64,000 nucleotides of DNA from assembly GCF_001887355.1 (NCBI RefSeq), contig NZ_MPIN01000001.1, positions 1,201,785 through 1,265,784 of the forward strand, given 5' to 3'. Positions 13,927 to 17,830 of this stretch are shown in pieces. Each line of letters starts with the position of its first letter. Within the stretch, counting starts at the first letter, position 1. A model generated the notes under the pieces. The model made no database searches, had not been told where the DNA came from, and saw only the letters and a program-made list of their open reading frames with translations. This DNA comes from Cystobacter ferrugineus. Its GTDB lineage: Bacteria > Myxococcota > Myxococcia > Myxococcales > Myxococcaceae. The position numbers were made by a program, and so were the translations under genes.

Positions 13927-14541
13927 ATGAGGAGTTTACTGTTGAAGGAGATGCTTGCAGGTCTGGCTCTGGTGCTGGGTGGCTGCGGCGGCCTCGAGGT
14001 AGCGGAAGAGCCGAATCCAAACATCGGAGATGCCGCGCCCGCCCAGGAGCAGTACTGCGTAGTGGAGGCCGTGGCTGTCGAACCGGGAGAGGAGCCTCCC
14101 AGTGAGCTGCCGCCGGCAAAGCTGGACTGCTTCGTCTCGTTTGCCGAGGCGATCACCTTCGCCACCAATGGGCTCGTCCAACTGCCGCCTGATGCGACTC
14201 CGGACGAGTTCACACCGGAACCGCCGTCGGCGCCGGACGTGACCCCCACGCAGCATGTCATCGCCATTGAATACGAGCACCGCGGGTGCCGTGGCCGCAC
14301 GCTGATCATTACCAGCAGGACCACCTGCGCCCAGGGCGATATTGGCAGGCCATCCTTGTCCCCGGCCTGGAATGACGTCATCTCCTCGGCCCGGACGTAC
14401 GAAGGGTGCAGAAACTCGTACCACTATGAGCACGTCAACTACAGAGGGGCGGTCGTGAACGCGAACTGCGGTACCTCCGCCTGCTGCAACATCGGCGATG
14501 CGATGAACGACCGGACCTCGTCCATTCGTTGGACGCGCTGA
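13927..14541 (+). CDS. Lipoprotein with crystallin-like Cys-rich C-terminus
   Basis: A 204-residue secreted lipoprotein. A strong GGAGGA ribosome binding site lies upstream of the ATG at 13927. The signal ends in a lipobox, LVLGGC, with Cys20 as the probable lipidated residue. After an acidic, proline-rich stretch (about 60-115), the C-terminal 90 residues contain paired cysteines and the pattern SSARTYEGC, YEHVNYRGAVV, CGTSACCNIGDAMNDRTSS and IRW. This resembles beta/gamma-crystallin-type domains of bacterial secreted proteins (calcium-binding or protease-inhibitor-like), but the match is by pattern only. The function is unknown; neither neighbour suggests a pathway. Confidence 0.7.
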   Translation: MRSLLLKEMLAGLALVLGGCGGLEVAEEPNPNIGDAAPAQEQYCVVEAVAVEPGEEPPSELPPAKLDCFVSFAEAITFATNGLVQLPPDATPDEFTPEPPSAPDVTPTQHVIAIEYEHRGCRGRTLIITSRTTCAQGDIGRPSLSPAWNDVISSARTYEGCRNSYHYEHVNYRGAVVNANCGTSACCNIGDAMNDRTSSIRWTR

Positions 14542-15662: not shown

Positions 15663-16130
15663 TTACAGCGCGGCGGCGGGTTGAGCGGTGGAGGGGATGG
15701 GCGCCACGGCCGGCCAGAAGCGCCGGGTGGCGAGCCGGACCGCGGCGTAGGCGAGGTAGCCGGTCGGCCCGAGCATGAAGGTCAGCAGCAGGCACGGCAC
15801 CACGAGCAGGTGCGGGATGCCGCGGCGCTGCGCGTCCGCGAGCACCACCCGGCCCACCAGGAAGTCGAACGCGAGGTAGTGGATCCACCCCGCGAGCAAC
15901 ATGCCCGGCATCCGCAGCGCGGCCTCGATGTGCGGCAGCGTGTCGAACTGGCTCAGCAGCCCCGGCAGGTGCGGCGCGACCTTCGTGAGGTACACCGCGC
16001 CAATCACCAGCGGCAGCACGTCACTCTCCAGGTACCACTTCGTGACCCGCGTCCGGGGCGCGAACACCATCGCCGCCCACCCCAGCAGCACCGGGACATT
16101 CAGGATCCTCAACCACACGTCATCGCTCAT
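15663..16130 (-). CDS. ABA4-like (DUF4281) membrane protein
   Basis: A 155-residue protein with about four membrane segments. The pattern NVPVLLGWAAMVFAPRTRVT, then GWIHYLAFDFLVGRVVLADA and HLLVVPCLLLTFMLGPTGYL, is typical of the ABA4-like family. Plant ABA4 is needed for neoxanthin synthesis; bacterial members have no assigned reaction, although homologues often sit near light-responsive or carotenoid genes (general knowledge, not shown here). No carotenoid gene is visible in this window. A good sigma-70-type promoter overlapped by paired 21-bp-spaced repeats precedes the gene, so it is probably regulated. It heads a two-gene unit with the membrane protein downstream. Confidence 0.85.
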   Translation of the reverse strand: MSDDVWLRILNVPVLLGWAAMVFAPRTRVTKWYLESDVLPLVIGAVYLTKVAPHLPGLLSQFDTLPHIEAALRMPGMLLAGWIHYLAFDFLVGRVVLADAQRRGIPHLLVVPCLLLTFMLGPTGYLAYAAVRLATRRFWPAVAPIPSTAQPAAAL

Positions 16131-16181
16131 GGTCCACCCTCGACGGGGCGCGTCCGTGGCTCACGCCCCGAGAATGTAGAC

Positions 16182-16234
16182 ACTGTAAGCAGTCATGTTT
16201 TCGCTGTCAACATCTGTGTTTTCGACGTCAACAT
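16182..16234 (-). promoter_or_regulatory. Promoter with two 21-bp-spaced operator-like repeats upstream of the ABA4-like gene
   Basis: On the minus strand TTGACA (16210-16205) and TACAGT (16187-16182) are separated by 17 bp, an excellent -35/-10 pair about 50 bp upstream of the start. Two near-identical direct repeats, TGTTTTCG-N2-GTCAACAT at 16196-16213 and 16217-16234, lie exactly 21 bp apart; each contains a TGTT-N9-AACA inverted pair. The first covers the -35 box. Two helical turns of spacing suggest cooperative binding of a repressor or activator. Confidence 0.65.

Positions 16235-16279: not shown

Positions 16280-17829
<1,550 letters not shown>

Positions 17830-17830
<1 letters not shown>

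Follow-up and report, generated by a model that had tools for sequence, protein, structure and literature searches.

A three-box array at the promoter of an ABA4-like gene in Cystobacter ferrugineus is a probable operator of a trans-encoded TetR repressor

We analysed a 64,000-nucleotide stretch of the Cystobacter ferrugineus genome (hereafter, the window) and found an array of three palindromic boxes at positions 16174-16234, over the promoter of a gene encoding an ABA4-like membrane protein. The array is very probably the operator of a TetR repressor encoded in trans, on contig C5 of the same genome, which would control the operon of the ABA4-like gene and a second gene, P2, together with its own promoter and, in relatives, the promoter of a carotenoid oxygenase homolog. 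A search of the open-access literature, by titles and the beginnings of abstracts, found no paper on the role of bacterial ABA4-like proteins, and the proposed operator would be a first handle on their function. With a candidate repressor, a defined box, the partner P2 and a box-sharing oxygenase, this function becomes directly testable.

Results

The box array and its promoter

The three boxes are imperfect palindromes of 19 bp each, spaced at 21 bp and approximating ATGTTKACAnnGTMAACAT. The original prediction had described two direct repeats placed two helical turns apart. Both are real, with exact letters, coordinates and spacing (TGTTTTCG-CT-GTCAACAT at 16196-16213 and TGTTTTCG-AC-GTCAACAT at 16217-16234, 21 bp apart), but the array holds a third copy, and each repeat is itself an imperfect palindrome. 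Read on the minus strand, from 16234 down to 16174, the array is ATGTTGACGTCGAAAACAC-AG-ATGTTGACAGCGAAAACAT-GA-CTGCTTACAGTGTCTACAT. Box A (ATGTTGACGTCGAAAACAC, 16216-16234) lies upstream of the -35 hexamer and outside the promoter, box B (ATGTTGACAGCGAAAACAT, 16195-16213) contains the -35 hexamer, and box C (CTGCTTACAGTGTCTACAT, 16174-16192) lies over the -10 hexamer, so that palindromic, operator-like boxes overlap the promoter of the presumed target. A promoter scan placed TTGACA at 16205-16210 and, after a 17-bp spacer, TACAGT at 16182-16187, both on the minus strand. This near-consensus promoter had also been predicted, and the scan gave no other promoter-like site between 15500 and 17500 (one found, with a mean of 0.1 in shuffled sequence).

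The boxes stand out clearly from their surroundings. A genome-wide search for the repeat, which the prediction had proposed, located TGTTGACNNCGAAAACA without mismatch at two places in the 12.05-Mb genome, both within the array. Using a weight matrix built from 29 training sites, all from ABA4 promoters and including the three boxes of the window, we obtained scores of 25.8, 30.5 and 21.6 for boxes A, B and C, respectively, against 10.0 for the next-best place in the window.

Conservation in the family

Protein searches of 96 genomes of the family recovered 13 close ABA4 orthologs (72-100% identity; genera g1, g3, g7 and g8) and 15 more distant loci. Boxes B and C, over the -35 and -10 hexamers, are kept at a spacing of 21-22 bp in all 13 close orthologs, while the upstream box A is found in three of them (the window's genome, G000, as well as G032 and G033). 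Conservation of the repeats in relatives had been set beforehand as a test, and the outcome, at least two boxes in 13/13 close orthologs, agrees with it. Between genera (56 pairs, compared without gaps), identity is 0.78 and 0.72 in the boxes versus 0.30 and 0.36 in the adjoining flanks of 40 and 22 bases. Since the boxes stay conserved in otherwise diverged DNA, the array constitutes a phylogenetic footprint.

The promoter alignment of these orthologs has 19 invariant columns out of 45. These include TTGAC of the -35 hexamer (13/13) and TTAC, as expected of a conserved sigma-70 promoter that needs no regulator, but also the downstream arms of the boxes (the AC and ACAT columns), which are no promoter element. 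Box A lies outside the promoter, boxes recur at the TetR and oxygenase promoters described below, and 2.56 Mb of first-order Markov sequence modelled on the window reaches 17.1 at most, with one score of at least 14.9 and none of 18 or more. We therefore regard a promoter alone, or repeats that arose by chance, as an extremely improbable explanation of the array.

Boxes are absent from 13 of the 15 distant ABA4-like loci (L020-L034), including the paralog in the window's own genome; the best score is 8.7 in eight of the 13, and none reaches 9 in the other five. The two that do have boxes, in G049 and G094, carry them between a P2-ABA4 pair and the TetR gene divergent from it.

A TetR gene accompanies the boxes

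The link to a regulator came from R1, a sequence-only covariance model of the ABA4 promoters, which was searched in the 96 genomes with 66 candidates scored per genome. R1 recovered arrays in 16/16 genomes of g6 (E 6.5e-7 to 7.6e-11) and 2/2 of g5 (E 1.1e-6 and 1.1e-8), all of them genomes without an ABA4 match in the protein search. Going by coordinates, each of the 18 arrays sits between a TetR gene and a divergent carotenoid oxygenase homolog, and in the two that were read (L044 and L062) the adjoining regulator is of the TetR_N/TetR_C_33 type. The window's genome encodes its TetR protein outside the window, at G000:C5:662170-662793, with matches to TetR_N (E 1.9e-15) and TetR_C_33 (E 1.4e-15).

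Orthologs of this protein, at 61-100% identity, occur in 31 of the 96 genomes. Each of the 31, the window's genome included, has a box by the matrix, with a score of 13.5 or more and no further than about 300 bp before the TetR gene, which places it at the promoter of the regulator itself. The covariance models are stricter: at E up to 0.1, R1 found boxes at 21 and R2 at 23 of the 30 TetR loci searched. The loci that they missed were accepted on their matrix scores, the lowest being 14.9 (G039) and 15.7 (G041). All 13 genomes with a close ABA4 ortholog fall within these 31 (hypergeometric 5e-8, phylogeny ignored), and within g7 two of seven genomes have both close orthologs and five have neither. 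G049 and G094, the two genomes with boxes at distant ABA4-like loci, lie outside the 31. A TetR relative in G045, at 51% identity, has no box.

How specific are these sites? Throughout 470 kb of the window and flanks, scores of at least 14.9 are confined to ABA4 and TetR promoters, with 10.7 as the highest score elsewhere. Beyond the array, the top-scoring place in the window's genome, among the 150 of 774 candidates that were scored, is the C5 TetR promoter (12.9 bits; matrix score 23.0), which carries a single box and not an array. An unrelated site in that genome, C4:531052, scores 14.9, equal to the weakest accepted TetR box, and a single site near 15 therefore means little alone. Other pattern sites among the matches listed for this genome score 12.0 (C5:363742), 13.4 (C9:266945) or below 9.5 (C6:322133, C10:261697 and C34:2975). 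When three mismatches were allowed, 298 sites were found with the forward pattern versus 224 with the reversed control, a level at which weak sites are not separable.

Related boxes also accompany more distant TetR relatives that neighbour other genes, and, judged from these sequences, the box type is that of a TetR subfamily and not of ABA4 alone. At E up to 1, R1 matched 44 of the 96 genomes, namely the 31 with a TetR ortholog and 13 others whose best matches are weak (E 0.003 to 0.97). Nine weak-match places in seven of these 13 genomes (L252-L260) were inspected: six (L252-L257) precede a TetR relative, unlike L258 and L259, and the 6 kb of L260 contain no such gene. L260 (73-472; G094:C428) holds six variant boxes of the ATGTGTCCAGCGGCAACAT type within about 400 bp before another gene.

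Box letters follow the recognition helix

The boxes change together with the protein. In 40 of the 46 TetR proteins examined, the recognition helix ends in YRHF, and position 3 of the half-site is G in 173 of 174 half-sites, as counted among half-sites pre-selected by a G-favouring matrix and in related, hence not independent, species. For proteins with KHHF or AHHF (three Pseudomonadales and Dongia), the same position is C in 19 of 24 half-sites and G in one, and because the selection matrix favours G, this C group is the more telling. Two further helix types, each from one protein, have mixed half-sites: one G and one C (YHHF, in G049) and G in three of four (YNHF). Box changes thus follow the TetR recognition helix, and this covariation predicts the regulon in other phyla.

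The covariation also bears on the identity of the regulator. A different protein, either of the MarR type or a TetR paralog, could in principle bind the boxes and control both tetR and the ABA4-like gene: the boxes contain GTTGA-N5-TCAAC, which we take to resemble MexR sites, and the distant TetR relatives with related boxes suggest that a paralog could bind here. Against this, box changes track the helix of the adjoining TetR protein, the association of box and TetR gene holds across genera and phyla, and the two further TetR relatives found in the window's genome (on C24 and C16) have no box at their promoters. Control by another regulator is thus unlikely; its MarR/MexR-like form was dropped once the TetR gene appeared beside the boxes.

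A carotenoid oxygenase shares the boxes

The TetR gene adjoins, and is divergent from, an RPE65-type oxygenase homolog in 24 of the 31 genomes: 16 in g6, two in g5, and G004, G006, G007, G032, G033 and G034. The last six are myxobacteria that carry boxes both at the ABA4 operon and in the TetR-oxygenase intergenic region, and this sequence arrangement is the most direct evidence for a putative joint control. Before the oxygenase genes of G007 and G006, a TTGACG or TTGACA hexamer lies inside a box, and TACAAC or TACATC follows 17 bp on. The L062 oxygenase matches PF03055 (RPE65) at E 9.9e-117, and its nearest solved relative is the Synechocystis apocarotenoid-15,15'-oxygenase (2biw; E 2.4e-69). 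Compared with the NCBIfam equivalogs, the relatives' oxygenase stays below every cut-off (best 175.9 of 675 bits).

The window's genome has lost the oxygenase beside its TetR gene by deletion. A remnant of 28 codons, 79% identical to the G033 protein, persists at L208:9028-9111 (G000:C5), the place at which the sister genome G033 has the gene. A second oxygenase gene in the window's genome, G000:C16:112101-114169 (L210), is divergent from another TetR relative and has no box.

The original prediction had tied ABA4-like proteins to light and carotenoid genes by their context elsewhere. The carotenoid tie holds through the boxes common to the oxygenase promoters; it does not extend to a general neighbourhood of the two genes, given that the oxygenase query matched none of the 80 ABA4 loci described below. 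The ABA4-oxygenase link accordingly rests on the shared boxes.

Boxes at ABA4 loci of other phyla

ABA4-like genes are common in bacteria, with 555 confirmed stretches in one scan, from which we took 80 named loci (Acidobacteria, Gammaproteobacteria, Bacteroidota and others). A TetR relative is present in 20 of the 80, comprising 19 complete frames and one (L157) cut by the contig end. We counted boxes, defined as a score of at least 15 within 250 bp upstream of the operon, at 75 of these loci, leaving out three from Archangium and Hyalangium genomes of the training set and two without a callable ABA4 frame. A box is present at all seven loci with a divergent TetR gene, at none of nine with a tandem one, at none of three in other arrangements, and at three of 56 without a complete TetR gene, one of these three being the truncated L157. 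Overall, 20 sites fall in the 19 kb upstream of operons, as compared to 30 in 939 kb elsewhere.

The seven divergent loci belong to three Acidobacteria (Terriglobia, Acidobacteriaceae), three Pseudomonadales and Dongia deserti, and the junction boxes of the three Acidobacteria score 26.0 to 30.5. At several distant loci, as well as in G049 and G094, the boxes overlap the P2 start when the gene is read at its longest. Tandem ABA4-TetR neighbours (e.g. G001, G051, L136 and L146) have no box between the genes, and this operator can therefore account for only some of the ABA4 loci. Around six distant loci, inspection of the neighbours by eye gave no gene in common beyond TetR and P2.

Repeat geometry and gene context argue against a MerR-type regulator

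A light- or B12-dependent MerR-type regulator (CarH/CarA) had been the original guess, and some features would suit it: the repeats contain TTGACA and lie over a -35 hexamer, the gene downstream is carotenoid-related, and the window's genome has a CarH-like MerR gene (L229, on C8), as judged from its sequence and helix. The promoter spacer in the array is 17 bp, though, and classical MerR promoters have a long spacer. The repeat geometry differs as well. CarH operators, in the passages of PMC9304148 that describe them, are tandem 11-bp direct repeats with TnnACA, whereas the TnnACA motifs of the array are spaced at 29 and 30 bp on the minus strand and at 30 and 21 bp on the plus strand, never at 11. 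The CarH-like gene does have three such 11-bp TnnACA repeats, on the same strand and some 9 kb upstream (L237), and no box scoring 9 or more lies in the 18 kb around that gene. MerR relatives were found in two of the 80 ABA4 loci, versus 20 for TetR, in a search that used six own-genome domains as queries and may be less sensitive than the TetR search. We consequently dropped control by CarH or a similar MerR protein on repeat geometry and gene context, the boxes marking instead the promoter of one TetR gene in 31/31 genomes; its probability is very low.

Discussion

The explanation that we favour is that putative dimers of the TetR protein (TetR_N and TetR_C_33) occupy the three palindromic boxes. 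Placed two helical turns apart, the boxes would align the dimers on one face of the DNA, over or next to the -35 and -10 hexamers and perhaps cooperatively, and RNA polymerase would thereby be kept off the ABA4-like/P2 promoter. The same repressor would bind its own promoter, resulting in autoregulation, and in relatives that of the divergent apocarotenoid-type oxygenase. A hydrophobic ligand may release it; we suggest a carotenoid-derived one because the oxygenase shares the boxes and because plant ABA4 acts in neoxanthin synthesis. The regulator may also activate instead of repress.

Operators of TetR/QacR-like repressors have several dimer sites over a promoter. The array resembles them in its palindromic boxes over the -35 and -10 hexamers, the box at the regulator's promoter, the TetR_N domain and, in relatives, the divergent target gene. 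It differs in the size and number of its boxes (19 bp, two or three copies, 21-22 bp apart), in the TetR_C_33 subfamily of its regulator and, for this genome, in the large distance between regulator gene and target. For the G018 TetR ortholog, the best relative with a solved structure is 3on2, itself named only as a probable regulator. With the CarH/CarA operators of myxobacteria, as far as PMC9304148 characterises them, the array shares repeats that overlap a TTGACA -35 hexamer and a carotenoid context; in those operators, MerR-type proteins bind 11-bp direct repeats that contain TnnACA, whereas the boxes found here are palindromes at 21 bp.

The presumed operon lies on the minus strand and begins with the ABA4-like gene (15663-16130, 155 aa), whose product matches PF14108 at E 2.3e-31 with 109.3 bits, against a gathering score of 27. 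Its AlphaFold model has a pLDDT of 91, and a fold search with this model gave no clear match. The PF14108 domain is shared with plant ABA4, whereas the pairing with P2 and a TetR regulator sets the bacterial gene apart. P2 (14661-15644, 327 aa), the second gene, follows 18 bp downstream on the same strand and encodes a membrane protein whose family has no Pfam model, no Pfam family having matched more than two of 54 members. A P2 relative is present in 48 of the 80 ABA4 loci, and P2 homologs adjoin ABA4 across many phyla.

The predicted P2 structure (pLDDT 94) may resemble heme-copper oxidase subunit I, and His113, His200, His227 and His232 are invariant or nearly so. The VIA matches listed, at least 50, are titled cytochrome or quinol oxidases, NO reductases or respiratory supercomplexes, with Z 12.6-14.6 over 256-275 residues and rmsd 4.9-7.3, Z values that helical proteins can reach by chance. 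The best Foldseek match, at E 0.19, is not significant, and a sequence search gave no match up to E 10.

A broader and rather doubtful extension is a cross-phylum module, made up of the TetR_C_33 repressor, the ABA4-like protein and P2, that would serve an oxidised signal or pigment derived from carotenoids. In it, the repressor would sense an apocarotenoid, the oxygenase, where present, would cut a carotenoid, and the ABA4-like protein and P2, with its heme-copper-oxidase-like predicted fold, would modify the product, in a bacterial counterpart to the opening steps of abscisic-acid synthesis in plants.

Several genes around these loci deserve mention. Directly upstream of the array, on the same strand as the operon, lies a hybrid histidine kinase/response regulator (16280-17830, minus), part of which resembles the EspC/EspA models, far below their cut-offs. 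Convergent with the operon, a small protein is encoded at 13927-14541 on the plus strand, with a weak beta/gamma-crystallin match below the cut-off (E 0.013). The boxless ABA4-like paralog of the same genome (G000:C24:41433-41837; L028, L236) is distant, at 37% identity, and lies about 3 kb from a SoxR-looking MerR domain and about 13 kb from a TetR relative.
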